64,000 nt of DNA. It comes from Mycolicibacterium anyangense. GTDB lineage: Bacteria; Actinomycetota; Actinomycetes; Mycobacteriales; Mycobacteriaceae. The notes below the pieces were generated by a model that was not told the DNA's origin, searched no databases, and saw only the letters and a program-made list of their open reading frames with translations. Positions 37,595 through 44,103 of this stretch are shown here, in pieces (the stretch's first letter is position 1; the number at the start of each line of letters is the position of its first letter). Made by a program: the position numbers and the translations under genes. The stretch is from assembly GCF_010731855.1 (NCBI RefSeq), contig NZ_AP022620.1, positions 3,224,001-3,288,000 of the forward strand. Direction: 5' to 3'.

Positions 37595-37670
37595 GCCCCT
37601 ATAGCTCAGTCGGTAGAGCTACGGACTTTTAATCCGCAGGTCCCAGGTTCGAGCCCTGGTGGGGGCACCA
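37595..37670 (+). tRNA. tRNA-Lys (TTT), integration site
   Basis: A complete cloverleaf on the plus strand: acceptor GCCCCTA pairing with TGGGGGC, discriminator A, encoded CCA (37668-37670), anticodon loop CTTTTAA giving TTT. The 3' part from 37623 on is repeated at 44054-44103, so this gene is the attachment site used by the adjacent element. Integration left the tRNA intact because the element carries the same 3' sequence. Confidence 0.95.
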
Positions 37671-37957
37671 GCAGCTCCGCCGTCGTCGTCTCCGCCACCG
37701 TCGTGACCGGAGACCGAGCGGAAGAACGTCGCAGGGTGGACGCCCAGTACATCGGCGACACGCTCAAGTTCGTCGACCGTGAACGCGTCTCGCTCACTCG
37801 TTGGCTTCAACCGCCGATTCAGTGTCGACTGCGAGATGCCGGCAGCCGAGGCAAGAGCGGACTCCTTGATACCGATGCGCGCCATTTCGACGCGAACCTC
37901 GGTCGCCACCTTCGCGCGGGCAGCCGACCGATCCGACATGTAGATGACCTTGCTCAT
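37619..37957 (-). CDS. XRE-type repressor whose 3' end spans the att core
   Basis: A 112-residue DNA-binding protein; the helix-turn-helix is at about 31-50 (KESALASAAGISQSTLNRRL) and VDELERVADVLGVHPATFF follows, typical of Cro/CI-type XRE proteins. A linker rich in Gly and Asp leads to a tail APTRARTWDLRIKSP that is simply the antisense of tRNA-Lys, and the stop TAG (37619-37621) lies in the chromosomal half of the tRNA. In the reconstructed attP the frame instead continues with 14 more residues, ending RLGAAA. The start may also be ATG 37939. It diverges from a Cro-like gene with two matching operators between them. It should maintain the silent state of the element. Confidence 0.82.
   Translation of the reverse strand: MSKVIYMSDRSAARAKVATEVRVEMARIGIKESALASAAGISQSTLNRRLKPTSERDAFTVDELERVADVLGVHPATFFRSVSGHDGGGDDDGGAAGAPTRARTWDLRIKSP
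37623..37672 (+). repeat. Left attachment site core (attL)
   Basis: Fifty bases from the anticodon arm of tRNA-Lys through its CCA end plus GC. They match 44054-44103 with one difference (G at 37653, C at 44084). The core also encodes, in antisense, the last residues of the element's repressor. Confidence 0.92.
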
Positions 37958-37990
37958 GACAGCCGATACTAGATCCACCAGTGCATAAAA

Positions 37991-38008
37991 TCACCCACAT
38001 CTGGGTGA
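37991..38008. promoter_or_regulatory. Operator 1 of the repressor/Cro switch
   Basis: TCACCCA-CATC-TGGGTGA is a perfect 7-bp inverted repeat located 34 bases upstream of the repressor start. Its centre ACCCACATCTGGGT is one base different from operator 2 at 38067-38080, so both should bind the same protein. Confidence 0.8.
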
Positions 38009-38066
38009 AACATTCACACAGGTTTGACGCTCCCAGCCATGACGAGACCAACAGGCCTTGACTTTA

Positions 38067-38080
38067 ACCCACATGTGGGT
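38067..38080. promoter_or_regulatory. Operator 2 of the repressor/Cro switch
   Basis: ACCCACATGTGGGT is a perfect 14-bp palindrome 13 bases before the Cro-like gene. It matches operator 1 and lies 74 bases from it. Occupation would block the rightward promoter of the element. Confidence 0.8.
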
Positions 38081-38093
38081 AAATTACTCTTTC

Positions 38094-38318
38094 ATGGTCG
38101 ATTCGCCGACAGGTGGGATAGCAGCTGAGGTGCGTGCCATCATGGCCCGTAACCGGATTTCACAGCAGGAAGCGGCTGACGCAGCGGGCATCTCGCAGTC
38201 ATCCATTTCGCGTCGCCTCGCAGGGGTAGCGCCGTTCACCGTGAATGAGATCTACCAAATCGCATCTCTCTGCGGCGTCGACCCGACTGACCTGCTGCCT
38301 ACGAAGGCCAGCGCGTGA
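38094..38318 (+). CDS. Cro-like XRE regulator
   Basis: A 74-residue XRE protein. The helix-turn-helix is SQQEAADAAGISQSSISRRL followed by VNEIYQIASLCGVDPTDLL. It shares the recognition-helix region AAGISQS with the divergent repressor, so both probably read the ACCCACAT operators. ATG 38094 is chosen because the longer frame would include operator 2. It is the first gene of the rightward operon of the element; the next small gene overlaps its stop codon (GTGA). Confidence 0.85.
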   Translation: MVDSPTGGIAAEVRAIMARNRISQQEAADAAGISQSSISRRLAGVAPFTVNEIYQIASLCGVDPTDLLPTKASA

Positions 38319-38473
38319 ACAGCGCGCTGGTGGCTGCCCTGTTCATCCTCATGTTGGCAGGTGGGATCGGCTTCGGTGCATCTCTAAGTCTGCGGAAGGC
38401 AAAGCCACCGCCACGTTCGGCCGACGACCGCGACATCGATGAGTGGTACGCCGATCTGTGGTGGACGCGATGA
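38315..38473 (+). CDS. Small membrane protein of the element
   Basis: A 52-residue frame with GTG start overlapping the Cro stop. It has one membrane helix (LVAALFILMLAGGIGFGASL) followed by a basic turn RKAKPPPR and an acidic/aromatic end DIDEWYADLWW. The TGA overlaps an ATG at 38470 that opens a 13-codon frame ending exactly at the start of the next gene (38511), so ribosomes could pass through the whole set by coupling. Function unknown. Confidence 0.6.
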   Translation: MNSALVAALFILMLAGGIGFGASLSLRKAKPPPRSADDRDIDEWYADLWWTR

Positions 38474-38510
38474 CGGCGCCGCGTTCAGCTGGCTCGCGGT
38501 TCGGTGGCTG

Positions 38511-38714
38511 ATGGATCCATTGGCCCTGGCTGCTCTCGGAGTGGCGGCATTGGTTTCCATCGCGTTGTCCCTCGCCAACCGTGTGCAACTGGCGGAGCGT
38601 CGTAGCCACTCGCGCGCGTACCTGCCGACGCCGGATCCGCTTGGCTCCAGTGACCTTGTCACCGCGGACGAGATGTGCACGTCGTGCCAACAACCCCGAT
38701 GCAGTTGCCGATAG
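38511..38714 (+). CDS. Small membrane protein with C-terminal cysteines
   Basis: A 67-residue protein. ATG 38511 overlaps a preceding TGA (TGATG). A membrane helix LALAALGVAALVSIALSLAN is followed by a basic region and the cysteine-rich end EMCTSCQQPRCSCR, which could bind a metal. It lies in the early operon of the element. No family recognised. Confidence 0.6.
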   Translation: MDPLALAALGVAALVSIALSLANRVQLAERRSHSRAYLPTPDPLGSSDLVTADEMCTSCQQPRCSCR

Positions 38715-38814
38715 CAGCCACACAGGCCCTTCTTCTCCACCTGAAAAAGCTGGAGGGCCGCCATGCCCGGCGACCCTCCGAAATGACACCGGTACCCAAG
38801 GTGAAAGGAACCCG

Positions 38815-39132
38815 ATGTCGTATTCCACGGTAGCCCAAGAGCCCTTTGCAATCCGCGAGGGACTCACGGGAACGCCGGGTAGCACGGTCTCTCACCCGTT
38901 CATTGACGGCATGGTCGGCGGCCAGGCTGTCGTCACCGCGTTCGAATCACTGGCACAACGCGACGACGGCGGTTCGCCGCAATGGTTTCTGGTGACCTAC
39001 CCCGACGTGGCGCACTTTGCCGGTGTCGATCACCCTGCCACGGTAGCGATCTCTGACGAAAGCCAAGCTCGCCAGTGGGTTTCGTTCATCGCTGCGTTGT
39101 GCGCCAAGGCCACCACGGCGGTGTCATCGTGA
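38815..39132 (+). CDS. Hypothetical element protein
   Basis: A 105-residue protein starting at an ATG with GAAAGGA upstream. The sequence (PFIDGMVGGQAVVTAFESLA, PQWFLVTYPDVAHFAGVDHP, ARQWVSFIAALCAKA) looks like a compact globular domain. No family recognised. The 100 bases before it (38715-38814) also contain a 44-codon frame in another phase, which I do not call. Codon use is consistent with translation. Confidence 0.65.
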   Translation: MSYSTVAQEPFAIREGLTGTPGSTVSHPFIDGMVGGQAVVTAFESLAQRDDGGSPQWFLVTYPDVAHFAGVDHPATVAISDESQARQWVSFIAALCAKATTAVSS

Positions 39133-39165
39133 CCCATTGGCAGAGCCGCGCAGCCTGCGCCGCGC

Positions 39166-39423
39166 ATGGCACCTAACGCTCCGGCTCCGCTCGTACGCCG
39201 CATGTTCGCGCTCTTTCGCGAAGGTGGGGTCGAGTGCCGCCCGCACAGGTTGGCCGTCTGCTCGTTCATCACCTGGCGCTCAGTCGAATCCACCAACGAC
39301 CTCACCGAGCGCGACGTTCGGGCGATCGGCGCCACGCTTGAGTACTGGAAAGCCTGCGGCGTAATCGAATACCGGTGCCGCCGTATCGCTAACACCTTGC
39401 AGGGGGCGGTGCCGAATGTCTGA
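39166..39423 (+). CDS. Hypothetical element protein, possibly DNA-related
   Basis: An 85-residue, mostly helical and basic protein (APLVRRMFALFREGGVECRP, TERDVRAIGATLEYWKACGV). Its stop overlaps the start of the replication-type gene by eight bases, so the two are coupled. No family recognised. The position directly before a replication gene suggests a helper or regulatory role, by inference only. Confidence 0.6.
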   Translation: MAPNAPAPLVRRMFALFREGGVECRPHRLAVCSFITWRSVESTNDLTERDVRAIGATLEYWKACGVIEYRCRRIANTLQGAVPNV

Positions 39424-40207
39424 GCGGATGACTATCACGCCCGAGCAGCGCCGACAGTGGGTGCGTCGGGTCATCGGTTGTGAGGACCTCACCGCCGCAC
39501 AGAAAGCCGTTGTGCTGGCTCTGGAGACCTTCTCTGACTACCGCGACGGTTCGAACGCCCACCCGGGGGAAGCGAACCTGGCCGAAATTTGCTGCATCAC
39601 AACACGCGCCGTCCGCAGCGCGCTGGAGCGCGGCCGCACGATCGGACTCATTCAGCAAACCGCACCAGCAAACCCGCGAGCCGCCCGAGCAGCTGTCTAT
39701 CGCATCGTCGTACCCACTTTGTTCACCGGAACGGCTGTTCCTGTTGGCAACCCCATCACCGGAACGACGCATCCTGTGAACAACTCCACCGCCGGAACGT
39801 ACAAGTCACCATCACCGGAACAGCCGTTCCTCCCACCAGAGTCATTCACCAAAAATACTGGTGTGTCACCCAACTCGGGTACGTCACCACGGGCCCACGC
39901 GGACGCACACATCGACGGGCCGCCATCACGATTCTGCGACAACCATCCGTACGGGACCAGGCACAAATGCTCCGACTGCGCCAATGCCCGAACAGCTTTC
40001 GACGCGTGGCAAACACATCGCCTCGAGCACAACGACGCTCTGGCCGCTGCCAACGATTTCGAACGGCGTCGGCGGCAGCGACTCATCGACAACTGCCCGC
40101 TGGGCTGTGACGACTTTGGACGAATCAGCGGTGTGGACTACGCCGGCAACGAAACTCTCAGGCCTTGCGATCACGGGCTATCGCTAGTGGTAGCTGCTGA
40201 TGGCTGA
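39416..40207 (+). CDS. Helix-turn-helix replication-type protein with internal repeats
   Basis: A 263-residue protein. The N-terminal 100 residues form a helix-turn-helix domain resembling phage replication initiators (LTAAQKAVVLALETFSDYRD, ANLAEICCITTRAVRSALER, IGLIQQT). A Thr/Pro-rich linker contains repeated TGTAVP/TGTTHP/AGTYKSP segments, whose DNA forms iteron-like repeats. The C-terminus has several Cys and His residues (FCDNHPYGTRHKCSDC, CPLGCDDFG) that may bind zinc. Like lambda O it may bind repeats inside its own gene as origin. Function is inferred. Confidence 0.65.
   Translation: MSERMTITPEQRRQWVRRVIGCEDLTAAQKAVVLALETFSDYRDGSNAHPGEANLAEICCITTRAVRSALERGRTIGLIQQTAPANPRAARAAVYRIVVPTLFTGTAVPVGNPITGTTHPVNNSTAGTYKSPSPEQPFLPPESFTKNTGVSPNSGTSPRAHADAHIDGPPSRFCDNHPYGTRHKCSDCANARTAFDAWQTHRLEHNDALAAANDFERRRRQRLIDNCPLGCDDFGRISGVDYAGNETLRPCDHGLSLVVAADG
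39724..39830 (+). repeat. Iteron-like repeats inside the replication-type gene
   Basis: Four copies of CACCGGAACG or a one-base variant start at 39724, 39757, 39790 and 39813, spaced 33, 33 and 23 bases (three and two helical turns). The first and last copies are part of GGAACGGCTGTTCC and its exact reverse complement GGAACAGCCGTTCC. This is a candidate replication origin. Confidence 0.6.
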
Positions 40208-40255
40208 CCGTCAGGATATTGCCGAGACTCGAGCCCAATCACCATGTGAGGGAAG

Positions 40256-40885
40256 ATGACTGCCACGACGCCGGGACGACGCCCCAACCTCACCGCCGCC
40301 GTCCACAGGCTCCGCAGCGCTATCGACCGGCTCATCACACCGACCACGGGCTACCAGAACAACGCCTACATTGAGGCCCCCGGGCTCTACACCCAACTCA
40401 AGGACGCCGTCGAACTCGGTCAACAGAGCAACACTGGTAGCGGCCGAGGATCGAAATCGCGCCCGCCGTTCTGGACCGACGCGGCCGTCCAGCTCCACAA
40501 CATCGATCTCATGATCACGGTCTGGTGTCGATCCGCCGGCACCACCGTCGTCAAACTTCGCACACTGTCGGCCAAGACATGGACCGTCGAAGACACCGCC
40601 GAAGTCCGCCGCAAGGCCGGCATCATCAATGCCTGGGCTGATGACATCGACATCCTGCTCAATCACGGCCACGTCCAATACATCTCCGCGGCCTGCCCGT
40701 GCTGTGGTGCAGCCACCGCCCAAAAACGAGACAGCGCAGGAGAACTCATCCGATCACCAGCGCTTCAAGTGATCGCCGAATACGGCTGCACCTGCCAACA
40801 ATGCGGCTACTTCTGGGCACCCGATAAGTACATCGACCTCTGCCAGCAACTGGGCCTCCCGCTCCCGGCCGGCGTCCTCGAGTAG
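40256..40885 (+). CDS. DUF7341-like phage protein with zinc ribbon
   Basis: A 209-residue protein of a type common in mycobacterial prophages (DUF7341, from memory). The N-terminal part is helical (LTAAVHRLRSAIDRLITP, PGLYTQLKDAVE), and the C-terminus has a zinc-ribbon pattern CPCCGA ... CTCQQCGYFW. A decayed partial copy of its C-terminus lies at 42310-42425. Role unknown; such genes lie near replication functions. Confidence 0.75.
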   Translation: MTATTPGRRPNLTAAVHRLRSAIDRLITPTTGYQNNAYIEAPGLYTQLKDAVELGQQSNTGSGRGSKSRPPFWTDAAVQLHNIDLMITVWCRSAGTTVVKLRTLSAKTWTVEDTAEVRRKAGIINAWADDIDILLNHGHVQYISAACPCCGAATAQKRDSAGELIRSPALQVIAEYGCTCQQCGYFWAPDKYIDLCQQLGLPLPAGVLE

Positions 40886-40920
40886 AGCCATATCGGCGGT
40901 AAGCTCCCGGCACGTCGCCG

Positions 40921-40974
40921 ATGACCGAGCCGCTATTGACACAGCCTGAATTGCCCGCCTCGCCATCAGGCTAA
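40921..40974 (+). pseudogene. Truncated start of a phage gene (first copy)
   Basis: ATG opens a 17-codon frame MTEPLLTQPELPASPSG and then stops. The same peptide start, with synonymous codon differences, appears at 43188. MTEPLLT is a usual beginning of small phage helix-turn-helix or excisionase-type genes. I read it as the 5' remnant of such a gene cut by a deletion. Confidence 0.45.
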
Positions 40975-41060
40975 GACTCGCATCTCTTCGGCGACCGGCG
41001 AGGAAGCCGATTTCGTGGGATCAGGTTCCTCCTCGGCCTGTGAAGACCGGGTGAGGGGCA

Positions 41061-41498
41061 CTACGGCGGCGTCACCGGATTGGAACACCTGACCGCGCCC
41101 GATTTGAAACCTGTGGGGTCCGCATCGCTGGCCGTCTGGTTGGCCGCATCCTGAAGAGCGCTCGCTTCGTCTGGTCCGCGGCCGCCAGTGAATCCCCCAG
41201 TACGCTGGTTGATCGCGACGGCAGCACAACCATATTCGGTCGTTGATCCCACATAGCACGGATACTTACCCGCGTTTTCTCTATTGCAAAGATCCATGGC
41301 GATCCGCACAGCTTCATCCTGGGTCCCCGCCATGCCGTATTTTATGGAAGGCTCGGGCGCGAAAGGGGCGACGACTAGGGCCACCCAATCTTCGCCGTAG
41401 GGGTCTTCAGGGCTGGCGCGCGCGAACGTGGGCGCGACGCTCCAGATCGTCACGACCGCCGCCAGTGCACCAAACTTTGCTGCGGCAATCCTGTTCAT
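41061..41498 (-). CDS. Secreted DUF4189-like protein
   Basis: A 145-residue exported protein. ATG 41498 starts a signal peptide (AAAKFGALAAVVTIWSVAPTFARA), and the mature part resembles DUF4189 (DEAVRIAMDLCNRENAGKYPC, EYGCAAVAINQRTGGF, ASALQDAANQ) with paired cysteines. The open frame continues far upstream but without a plausible protein. It lies in reverse orientation to the replication genes, as cargo of the element. A related gene is at 42426-42881. Confidence 0.75.
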   Translation of the reverse strand: MNRIAAAKFGALAAVVTIWSVAPTFARASPEDPYGEDWVALVVAPFAPEPSIKYGMAGTQDEAVRIAMDLCNRENAGKYPCYVGSTTEYGCAAVAINQRTGGFTGGRGPDEASALQDAANQTASDADPTGFKSGAVRCSNPVTPP

Positions 41499-41763
41499 GG
41501 CCTGAGAGCTTATGCCATTATGCGGCGTTACGGGAACCAGCAGCTCGGCTCCGAAGGGGTCCAGCAATTCGAAGAGGACCGCGGCGCCGATCCCGAGGCA
41601 CGCGTGCGAATCCCGGTTGTCGGCAGGTTCTGGTGGCGTAGCAACATCTTGTACGACGCGTACGTTCACGCCAAGCGCGACAGTATGGGGTAAAACCCGC
41701 ACACGAGTCGAGATCGCCCGCGAGCCTTCGGGAGGGGGCGAGTTTAGACCATTTGGGGCCGAA

Positions 41764-42195
41764 CTACTGGACGCCAGATAGATTATTCGGGCAGTAGGCC
41801 ATTGCCGCGGCGACCAAAAAAGGGGTCGCCTGATCAATGTTGAAGCCAGCATCGAGCATCCATTGCAAGGTGCCAACCTTGCCGACGGTATCGAACCTGT
41901 TGCACGCCATGTGTGCCGAGTCGAACAGGCTGCCGCGCTCCACGGTGGAAAAGAATGACCATTGTGACGACGACTGCAGCTGGGCTAGGAACACCCGGTC
42001 TTGGTCGGTGATGTCGCCGGGTCGTGTTGTGGACGTCGGCGCGGCGGTCGCCGCATCGGTGGCCGACGGACTGCTGGACGTAACCGTGACCGTCGACACC
42101 GTCGCAGGATGTTGCTCGGTTGTCGTCCCGCAACCGACCAAGCTCACTGCCGTGGCCCCGATACCGCACCAAAACGCGCCTATACGCATTCCCAT
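41764..42195 (-). CDS. Lipoprotein, DUF732-like
   Basis: A 143-residue lipoprotein. The signal segment ends in SLVGC, a lipobox with the cysteine about 20 residues from the start, followed by a Ser/Thr-rich linker and a C-terminal domain (FDSAHMACNRFDTVGKVGT, ATPFLVAAAMAYCPNN) with a Cys pair, typical of mycobacterial DUF732 proteins. ATG 42195 and 42189 are both possible. Together with the two DUF4189-like proteins it makes an exported cargo set in the element. Function unknown. Confidence 0.75.
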   Translation of the reverse strand: MGMRIGAFWCGIGATAVSLVGCGTTTEQHPATVSTVTVTSSSPSATDAATAAPTSTTRPGDITDQDRVFLAQLQSSSQWSFFSTVERGSLFDSAHMACNRFDTVGKVGTLQWMLDAGFNIDQATPFLVAAAMAYCPNNLSGVQ

Positions 42196-42309
42196 ACCCC
42201 GTCCCAGACATGCCGCTGACAATTACCTGTGAGCGGGGAGGCTACGGCACCACATTCGACTGCAGCAAGGTGGGACGACTTTCCCCGTGCTGGCGGATAA
42301 GCGCGCCGC

Positions 42310-42425
42310 GCGAGAGACCTCCGTCAGAACTCATCCGATCGCCACCGCTTCAACAATGCGGTTACTTCTGGGCACCGAACAAGTTCGTTGGCCTCTGCCA
42401 ATCACTCGACCTCCCGCTAGCGGCG
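42310..42425 (+). pseudogene. Decayed partial copy of the DUF7341-like gene
   Basis: The translation SELIRSPPLQ-QCGYFWAPNKFVGLCQSLDLPLA matches the C-terminus of the gene at 40256-40885 (ELIRSPALQ ... QCGYFWAPDKYIDLCQQLG) with a 10-codon internal deletion that removes half of the zinc ribbon. Upstream sequence is lost. It shows that a second copy of this module once existed here. Confidence 0.75.
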
Positions 42426-42881
42426 CTAGGGCGCGGAGCAATAGTAGGCCCAAATATGCCCTTCTCCATTATGGTTTAGGCGACTCAATGCATCTGCTGA
42501 AGCGGCTTCCGGTGTGGGCCCGATCCCTGCTTGGGTCATGGGATCGTCGTCGTATGCAAGTGCGATACAGCCATTTTGGGTTTGGGCGATGGTTTCGCAA
42601 GCCGAGTTGGTCGCCGCGATGCATTGGGCTATCGAGATACGGCTGGCTTCTTGCGGGCTGGATCCTCTGCCCCAGTAAAGTTCTTGAGCACTAGCAGAGG
42701 CCGATAATGCGACGTAGTCATTGCCGGGCGTGTTTGGTAGGCACGCACTCAAATCGTCGGGATTGACGTACGAACCCGGTGGGCATTGCGGTGCTGCGAC
42801 GACCGGGGTCGCATGAGCCGCTGGTGTGACCAGAAAGCCGACGGTGACCAGTGCGGTGATGATGGCAAAGCGACAAATCAC
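42426..42881 (-). CDS. Secreted DUF4189-like protein
   Basis: A protein of about 151 residues with a signal peptide (ICRFAIITALVTVGFLVTPAAHA). GTG 42881 has AGGA seven bases upstream; a TTG eight codons earlier is the other option. The mature region NDYVALSASASAQELYWGRG, EASRISIAQCIAATNSACET and QNGCIALAYDDD follows the DUF4189 pattern. It is the second DUF4189-like gene of the element and is diverged from the first, so not a recent duplication. Its stop adjoins the decayed DUF7341 copy. Confidence 0.72.
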   Translation of the reverse strand: MICRFAIITALVTVGFLVTPAAHATPVVAAPQCPPGSYVNPDDLSACLPNTPGNDYVALSASASAQELYWGRGSSPQEASRISIAQCIAATNSACETIAQTQNGCIALAYDDDPMTQAGIGPTPEAASADALSRLNHNGEGHIWAYYCSAP

Positions 42882-43411
42882 GGTTTGTCCTGTCAGGGGC
42901 TTCAAATGAGTAGGGTAGCGAAGGTTTCATCGCTCTATCATCGCCGAATACTAGCGCTCGCTGGCGGTTCACTGTGAAGGTGTTGAACTTGGACCGGATT
43001 ACATCGCGAATATCGACAGACGCCGCCGGTCCATCCACTGGGTCTGCTGCATGATGCAATGCCAGCATCGGCGGAGGATCAACCACGCCGCCGTGCGCGG
43101 GCAAAATCGATCTCGCACGGATTGGGTGCGGGTTCGCCCTAGGTAGGTTTGCCTGGGACCAAGACACAAGATCTCCGACACGCCGCGTTGACCGAACCAC
43201 TCTTGACGCAGCCAGAATTTCGTGCAAACTAGGGGGGCGCGCTACACGTGTGCCCATAGCCCGGTAGACGCAAATCCCCCAGAATTTTGGCAGCACAACG
43301 CCGGCCTGGGGTGCAGCGATTCAGCCAGATATTCCGGCGGGTCGCCAGAACTGCTCAACCACAAACACTCTCAGCGCCACGCACGAGTCGCGGGCGGGCC
43401 GATCGGCGGAT
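42882..43411. other. Gene-poor decayed stretch of the element
   Basis: I see no convincing gene in these 530 bases. A minus-strand frame through 42718-43296 has no family-like sequence and overlaps the DUF4189 gene. The short relic at 43188-43232 lies inside. The missing integrase catalytic domain would have been encoded at the right-hand end of this stretch, so it probably contains a deletion junction. Confidence 0.6.
43188..43232 (+). pseudogene. Truncated start of a phage gene (second copy)
   Basis: TTG opens MTEPLLTQPEFRAN and stops. It shares MTEPLLTQPE with the frame at 40921, with several synonymous third-base changes, which indicates that both descend from a once-translated gene. This copy follows the decayed DUF7341 copy, as the first follows the intact one. 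Confidence 0.45.
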
Positions 43412-43855
43412 TCACCACGCTAGACGCTGGGAAATGCACGGTTCCAGCCCGGCCAGAAGGGCGAGCAGGATCATGCGCCGTGTTGAAGTCCACATGCGAG
43501 TCTGCAGGAGTTTCACCACTTCAGCGTCAGTGATCGGTCGGGGCTCCCGGTCGGGTGTGCGCGGGGTGCCGACCTTGATCATGGGGTTGTCGGCGCGGCG
43601 GTCGGTCACCTGCAGCCATTTGAACCAGGCGGAGAGGTAGCTGGTGTAGGTACAGACGGTGGAGTCACCCCACTGGTATTCGTGGTCGGCGATCCATCGG
43701 ACGACACCCGGAGCGTCGATACTGATCGGTTGCACACCGGTGTCGATGTGGCACTGCCGGATGACCCGCAACCGTTCGTCGATGGTCCGGCGTGAGAGTC
43801 GTTGCGCGACTTGCCAAACCTCCCAATCAGCCAATCCGGTTGTGTGCGTCGTCAT
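43412..43855 (-). pseudogene. int: Tyrosine recombinase (integrase), C-terminal catalytic domain lost
   Basis: From ATG 43855 about 135 residues read as the N-terminal part of a phage integrase: WEVWQVAQRLSRRTIDERLR, IDAPGVVRWIADHEYQWGD, STVCTYTSYLSAWFKWLQVT, then PRPITDAEVVKLLQTRM and the first catalytic-domain helix MILLALLAGL. At the point where the first catalytic arginine segment (usually LRVxE) should begin, the sequence changes to unrelated residues and stops. R, HxxR and Tyr are all missing, so the element cannot excise itself. The gene begins 200 bases from the right attachment site and points into the element. Confidence 0.8.
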
Positions 43856-44053
43856 GGCAGGCAATATTGCGGTATTGCTGAGACGTTCCTGGCAATTATT
43901 TGACGTGTTAACTAATTTGTGACGATGCTGACGCTCACTCGTTGCGCCCGCAAGCTTCTCCCCTTCTGGCGGGTAACGGCCGTAGTTAACCACGGCCGCG
44001 TCGCGGCTCATGCCGCCGCACCTAACCGGGTAAGAAAAAAGAGCCCATTGGAA

Positions 44054-44103
44054 GGACTTTTAATCCGCAGGTCCCAGGTTCGACCCCTGGTGGGGGCACC
44101 AGC
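44054..44103 (+). repeat. Right attachment site core (attR), tRNA-Lys 3' fragment
   Basis: A copy of the last part of tRNA-Lys, 49/50 identical to 37623-37672. It lacks the 5' half, so it is not a tRNA gene. Left of it the sequence encodes, on the minus strand in attP, the alternative tail of the repressor. Confidence 0.92.

Follow-up and report, generated by a model that had tools for sequence, protein, structure and literature searches.

A decayed prophage in a tRNA-Lys gene of Mycolicibacterium anyangense as the probable remnant of an integration-dependent repressor switch

The founding paper of integration-dependent immunity is said to be that of Broussard in 2013. In the mycobacteriophage BPs, attP lies within the repressor gene, the prophage form of the repressor is shorter than the viral form (gp33-103 versus gp33-136) and the viral form is removed via an ssrA-like tag (available text of PMC4557955). 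Integration removes the tag, a stop codon at attL ends the protein and the shortened repressor then confers immunity, as set out in the accessible parts of the literature (PMC9262239, PMC4557955, PMC8092301). Such systems have been described for phages of clusters N, G and P and for prophages in sequenced Mycobacterium genomes (PMC9262239, PMC8092301), and provision of the stop by host bases has equally been published (PMC8092301, PMC9262239). A tRNA-Lys gene serves as attB of cluster N phages (PMC7542560). An -AA end of the repressor is typical and not required, because the systems presented in the accessible part of PMC8092301 include repressors without it; equally, an -AA end of the integrase is not required, because systems without it are listed there. 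The locus analysed here is a decayed addition to this already known system, its new points being a dead integrase, a sister remnant and a survey of reading frames.

The window, that is the whole stretch of 64,000 nucleotides that was analysed (contig NZ_AP022620.1, positions 3,224,001 to 3,288,000), harbours approximately 6.4 kb of phage-like DNA between two copies of an attachment core, which is the 3' part of a host tRNA-Lys gene repeated at the far end of the element (Table 1). This element is a decayed prophage remnant comprising an XRE repressor gene (minus strand) and a cro-like gene divergent from it, together with early phage genes, two small DUF732 and DUF4189 genes and a piece of a tyrosine integrase. 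Among 396 genomes of the genus, a sample drawn from a larger group, the tRNA-Lys 3' end was matched in 286 with at most three mismatches and was single-copy in about 257 of these (counted from the table), so that the uninterrupted site, which the preliminary description had proposed to look for in relatives, is common.

Table 1 Position of the features of the element and its target gene within the window
Feature	Position	Strand	Basis
Host tRNA-Lys, anticodon TTT, intact	37595..37670	+	ARAGORN; antisense-frame stops read
XRE-family repressor, prophage form, 112 aa, ends RIKSP and stop	37619..37957	-	Pfam HTH matches; PHROG 4583 and 2328 (transcriptional repressor)
attL core, 50 bases	37623..37672		Direct repeat; 50/50 to attP of phage IdentityCrisis
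Candidate operator ACCCACATCTGGGT	37993..38006		Inferred from pattern in sequence
Candidate operator ACCCACATGTGGGT	38067..38080		Inferred from pattern in sequence
Cro-like HTH gene, divergent from repressor	38094..38318	+	Pfam HTH_3; PHROG 4583
Small early phage gene, function unassigned	39166..39423	+	PHROG 25178
HTH early phage gene, replication-initiator-like	39416..40207	+	PHROG 26991, 2447, 3171
DUF7341/DUF7340 phage gene	40256..40885	+	Domain matches; phage relatives up to 43%
Tyrosine integrase stump, without catalytic part	43412..43855	-	Homologous to about 43445, then unrelated sequence
Deduced viral repressor tail-coding stretch adjoining attR, tail SNGLFFLTRLGAAA and stop	44008..44053	-	attR reading
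attR core	44054..44103		49/50 (98%) to attL core; direct repeat

The repressor frame is open through both core copies, and the attP site thus falls within the repressor gene. In the integrated state the antisense strand of the tRNA-Lys supplies the last residues of the repressor and its stop, TAG at 37621-37619 (nt 27-25 of the tRNA), just past the core; the ORF at 37957-37619 confirms the 112 residues read through the core into host DNA that the preliminary description had reported. On the other side of the element, a minus-strand reading of attR by itself, which requires no joining of DNA, gives GDGAGAPTRGRTWDLRIKSPSNGLFFLTRLGAAA up to a stop at 44010-44008, a reading also given as GAPTRGRTWDLRIKSPSNGLFFLTRLGAAA and ending in LTRLGAAA. 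These 14 extra residues bear out the continuation to an LGAAA end and about 126 residues that had been proposed. Integration thereby gives a repressor shortened by the stop at attL, with 112 residues compared with 112 + 14 = 126 in the viral form, the latter having no single gene in this genome and being deduced from attL, attR and relatives. The viral form would carry a C-terminal degradation tag, to judge from its LGAAA end; the tmRNA tag of the host, ADSHQRDYALAA, ends in ALAA.

Among free phages, IdentityCrisis (MN234184) holds the identical core (50/50) inside its repressor in the same frame, the protein ending in RIKSPLESPFASVELEAA with the tail VELEAA, and WST1 (PV574450) holds a core matching at 47/50, again inside the repressor and in the same frame, with a tail ending in LEAA. 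The repressors of both match the window repressor at 40-41% and their integrases are 78-80% identical to the window stump, while they differ from the element in being complete phages with a 290-aa integrase. The suggested comparison of the long form with phage repressors has found, in IdentityCrisis, the same core, frame and type of tail. Cluster N phages (Charlie, Redi and relatives) equally have the tRNA-Lys core inside the repressor and an integrase about 77-78% identical to the stump, but the core, matching at 42-46 of 50 positions, is read in another frame (WCPHQGSNLGPAD), and the tails of all sampled cluster N phages end in -SAA except that of Kevin1 (-VA). That cluster N phages use the same tRNA-Lys, as stated in the preliminary description, agrees with the accessible part of PMC7542560 and with these cores. 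BPs differs in its tRNA-Arg target, in the loss of 33 residues rather than 14 and in being an active phage, whereas the window element is a remnant. A free form whose attP leaves the repressor unextended, which would speak against the proposed switch, was searched for, and in 14 of the 14 picked core-bearing phages the repressor frame is extended.

The nearest free-phage match to the DNA-binding part of the repressor is found in JustASigh (55% over 82 residues); the same part as query gave no matches among the genome contigs or viral contigs searched. JustASigh was considered as donor of the whole module and rejected, since the best match to the tRNA-Lys core in its fetched stretch is 25/50 and no operator-like site at two or fewer mismatches is present there. 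The repressor module is likely a mosaic of a JustASigh-type DNA-binding part and an IdentityCrisis-type core end. What can be called cluster N-type is the module, integrase included, and not the phage, the genome of which is mostly deleted.

The tRNA-Lys end can be entered by a repressor in more than one way. On its antisense strand (37606-37672) three frames are all open into the tRNA, each for at least 13 codons, and each meets a stop inside it, namely TAG (nt 27-25), TAA (nt 37-35, anticodon loop) and TGA (nt 14-12) in the window. The frame GAPTRARTWDLRI is used by the window repressor, by IdentityCrisis, WST1 and Rem711 and by the prophages of genomes G294, G161, G222 and G354, and with GAPSRTRTYDLRI by L052; the WCPHQGSNLGPAD-like frame by Redi, Charlie, Phishy and others; and the frame VPPPGLEPGTCGLK by G377. 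No statement on the use of three frames was found in the open-access text searched, and no priority is claimed. As the antisense strand is open in all three frames, a run-through is easy, and it can be argued that the window repressor merely runs out into the tRNA, with the -AAA tail in attR being meaningless. This coincidence is, however, very improbable: an -AA end occurs in 20 of 21 tails read through the core in the repressor frame, compared with 0 of the 42 readings in the remaining frames and a background of 12 among the 1108 stop-to-stop frames of at least 30 aa within the window, and the mechanism is published for relatives. The 21 rows comprise 14 phages, hand-picked from 220 records with an integrase match and from a list of integrase matches, one viral contig and six prophages, many of them related and representing about ten lineages by eye. 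The only tail without -AA is that of Kevin1; in the attR copy of G354, the core is interrupted by an in-frame stop distal to the phage arm, and the phage-side tail counted among the 21 ends in DEAAA. Left out of the rows were JustASigh (without core), prophiT50-1 (repressor outside the fetched stretch), the viral contigs L049, L050, L051 and L053 (core match at most 36/50) and the MAG contig L054 (repressor side at the contig end).

The integrase gene, not recognized as truncated in the earlier account of the locus, retains approximately 137 homologous residues of the 290 in IdentityCrisis. Identity to cluster N-type integrases is 76-80% over 133-137 residues up to a break near 43445, where homology stops after LLALLAGL. 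The DNA at the break (window 43175-43447) aligns elsewhere in the G294 sister element (L028 12803-13076), which makes the break a deletion junction and not a reading error. With the IdentityCrisis integrase as query, no other close relative of the stump was found elsewhere in this genome, the other matches being at most 40% identical and confined to the C-terminal half of the query. By sequence, the element cannot excise by its own integrase, although a related outside integrase may rescue it. An -AA end, such as the LRAA of the IdentityCrisis integrase, is not seen, the C-terminus having been lost. In the circle, the integrase gene lies downstream of the repressor and on the same strand, as had been claimed, even if it is now a stump. 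Translational coupling of the repressor to the integrase through an ATG at 44011-44009 overlapping the repressor stop was considered and rejected, since homology to the IdentityCrisis integrase starts at the ATG at 43855. Gene order, attP within the repressor gene, a stop on the host side, an ssrA-like -AA tail and a tRNA target all match the accessible publications on BPs, Charlie and their like, with which the preliminary description had aligned the locus (PMC9262239, PMC4557955, PMC8092301).

Taken from sequence, the element is with a probability of about 0.9 the remnant of a phage with an integration-dependent repressor switch in tRNA-Lys, now frozen in the immune setting. On this reading, a temperate phage whose integrase was of the cluster N type would have inserted into the tRNA-Lys via the attP inside its own repressor gene, and the insertion would have swapped the 3' end of the repressor for host tRNA, with loss of the 14-residue LGAAA tail and gain of the TAG after RIKSP. 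By analogy with published work on relatives, the viral repressor would be removed via its ssrA-like end, and the prophage repressor would persist, hold the early promoter off and so provide immunity. Later deletions would have taken most of the phage and the catalytic half of the integrase, leaving the switch in the immune setting, expressed or not. The integration-dependent switch of the preliminary description stands in its repressor and attP anatomy and falls as a device still operable by the element, since without the catalytic half its own integrase would no longer return it to the viral form.

Whether such arrangements recur was addressed in the 396 genomes, 21 of which carry at least two same-strand copies of the tRNA-Lys end, 19 of them on one contig. 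In six of the 19 (window genome, G294, G161, G222, G354 and G377) a repressor-like ORF of at least 60 residues runs into the attL core. The repressors of all but G294 have HTH matches, those of G161 and G377 below the Pfam curated cut-off; the G294 repressor, outside the HTH scan, is 96% identical to that of the window. ORFs through the attL core in two further genomes were rejected, that of G055, tried as a seventh prophage of this kind, having no HTH match and that of G062 looking unlike a repressor. In four of the six prophages the element measures 52-63 kb and its integrase matches extend over 273-284 of 290 residues, which is not the case for the window element and that of G294. The G294 element (L028 5324-17591) shares with the window element the same tRNA-Lys, the 96%-identical repressor and the want of a full integrase at the element, and its attR tail is open and ends in IVPPLGKAA. 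It differs in its 12.2 kb between the cores, in tail-gene sequence (tape measure, major tail and tail terminator) and in its deletions. Two separate integrase C-terminal scraps are found there (L028 12307-12489 and 10141-10290), and the findings at this site suggest that more than one prophage decayed there.

The same tRNA-Lys is also occupied by elements of another size class. Elements of 10-14 kb were observed in at least eight genomes (G062, G084, G128, G130, G143, G170, G324 and G354; L068, L070, L071, L072, L073, L074, L076 and L077), each sharing at least four protein matches with another one over compared stretches that include approximately 2 kb of host flank per side. The scanned one, that of G128, encodes a major head protein together with an integrase and resembles a capsid-bearing phage satellite in this. 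On contig C51 of G354, a single tRNA-Lys is occupied by the 12.4-kb element (L077) and the 52-kb prophage (L082) in a tandem arrangement with three consecutive core copies.

Of the early genes of the window element, that at 39416..40207 has its nearest relatives in WST1 (53%) and in the M. abscessus prophage phiGD21-1 (53%). In the gap between repressor and cro-like gene, two ACCCACATNTGGGT sites are possible operators. The exact pair was reached in 0 of 200 Markov copies of the window, the pattern itself being derived from the same sequence, and with two mismatches allowed the observed site count was reached in 11 of 100 shuffles. The sites are diverged in G294 by one and two bases, and the stretches fetched for JustASigh and L052 contain none at two or fewer mismatches. 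As further observations, the DUF7340 end of the gene at 40256-40885 (40741-40869) is partly repeated in pieces at 42326-42424 with 80-93% identity, as might result from a merger of two related prophages or from duplication of a segment prior to decay. The DUF732 and DUF4189 genes lie at 41764-42222 and 42426-42905, and G294 (L028 8656-12249) holds several relatives of them, one oppositely oriented.

The age of the two remnants bears on what the repressor may still do. Between the window genome (G000) and G294, considering pairs with omega below 0.45, the synonymous divergence (dS) ranges from 0.054 to 0.363 in seven ORFs of the element (repressor 0.19, cro-like gene 0.11, DUF7341 gene 0.05), compared with a range of 0.264 to 0.751 (median 0.55) in the 14 neighbouring host ORFs that have at least 190 codons; among host ORFs that are shorter or antisense, values as low as 0.123 occur. 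The element range excludes two antisense ORFs and the DUF4189 pair (0.838), which is probably a pair of paralogues because the gene has the opposite orientation in G294. Ancient inheritance of one locked remnant by both genomes is not supported, as the synonymous divergence of the element is mostly lower than that of host genes, and the divergence is better explained by independent captures of related phages, or by a later transfer, than by a single remnant retained ever since the species split. The capture is, on the same grounds, probably more recent than that split, with no host selection needed. It is hence somewhat probable that the element is debris of a once-working switch, its leftover repressor being useless to the host and still open only on account of a recent insertion or decay; the loss of most of the phage is in line with such a view. 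Against this speaks that the repressor is open in both elements without full integrase, with a dN/dS of 0.12, even if this ratio need not reflect selection in the host and selection may have acted in the phages.

On the other hand, hosts may have retained the frozen short repressor after the break of the integrase for a continuing block of phages that share its operators. Indeed, the same tRNA holds two elements from which different deletions removed the integrase, while in both the repressor remained open and the cro-like gene and early genes were kept. This reading is nevertheless unlikely: only two of the six tRNA-Lys prophages of this kind were found without a full integrase, dS argues against long vertical retention, the candidate operators differ between the two elements, and the repressor is not singled out by conservation, because other early genes are conserved too. 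Equally doubtful is the broader proposal of a switch locked in the on state, in which the truncated repressor would be unable to regain its degron once the integrase was lost, and mycobacteria would keep grounded remnants as a bare inherited immunity module against phages sharing those operators.

The favoured reading of a frozen switch means that a known regulatory system can still be made out in a decayed element from its raw sequence, and that a natural case exists in which the switch would no longer be reversible by the element's own integrase. The survey further shows three frames of one tRNA-Lys end in use by repressors and an -AA end in nearly all of the unintegrated tails. As each of the three frames meets a host stop and the tails so consistently share this end, frame and tail together can serve as an aid in identifying systems of this kind where a prophage is half lost.
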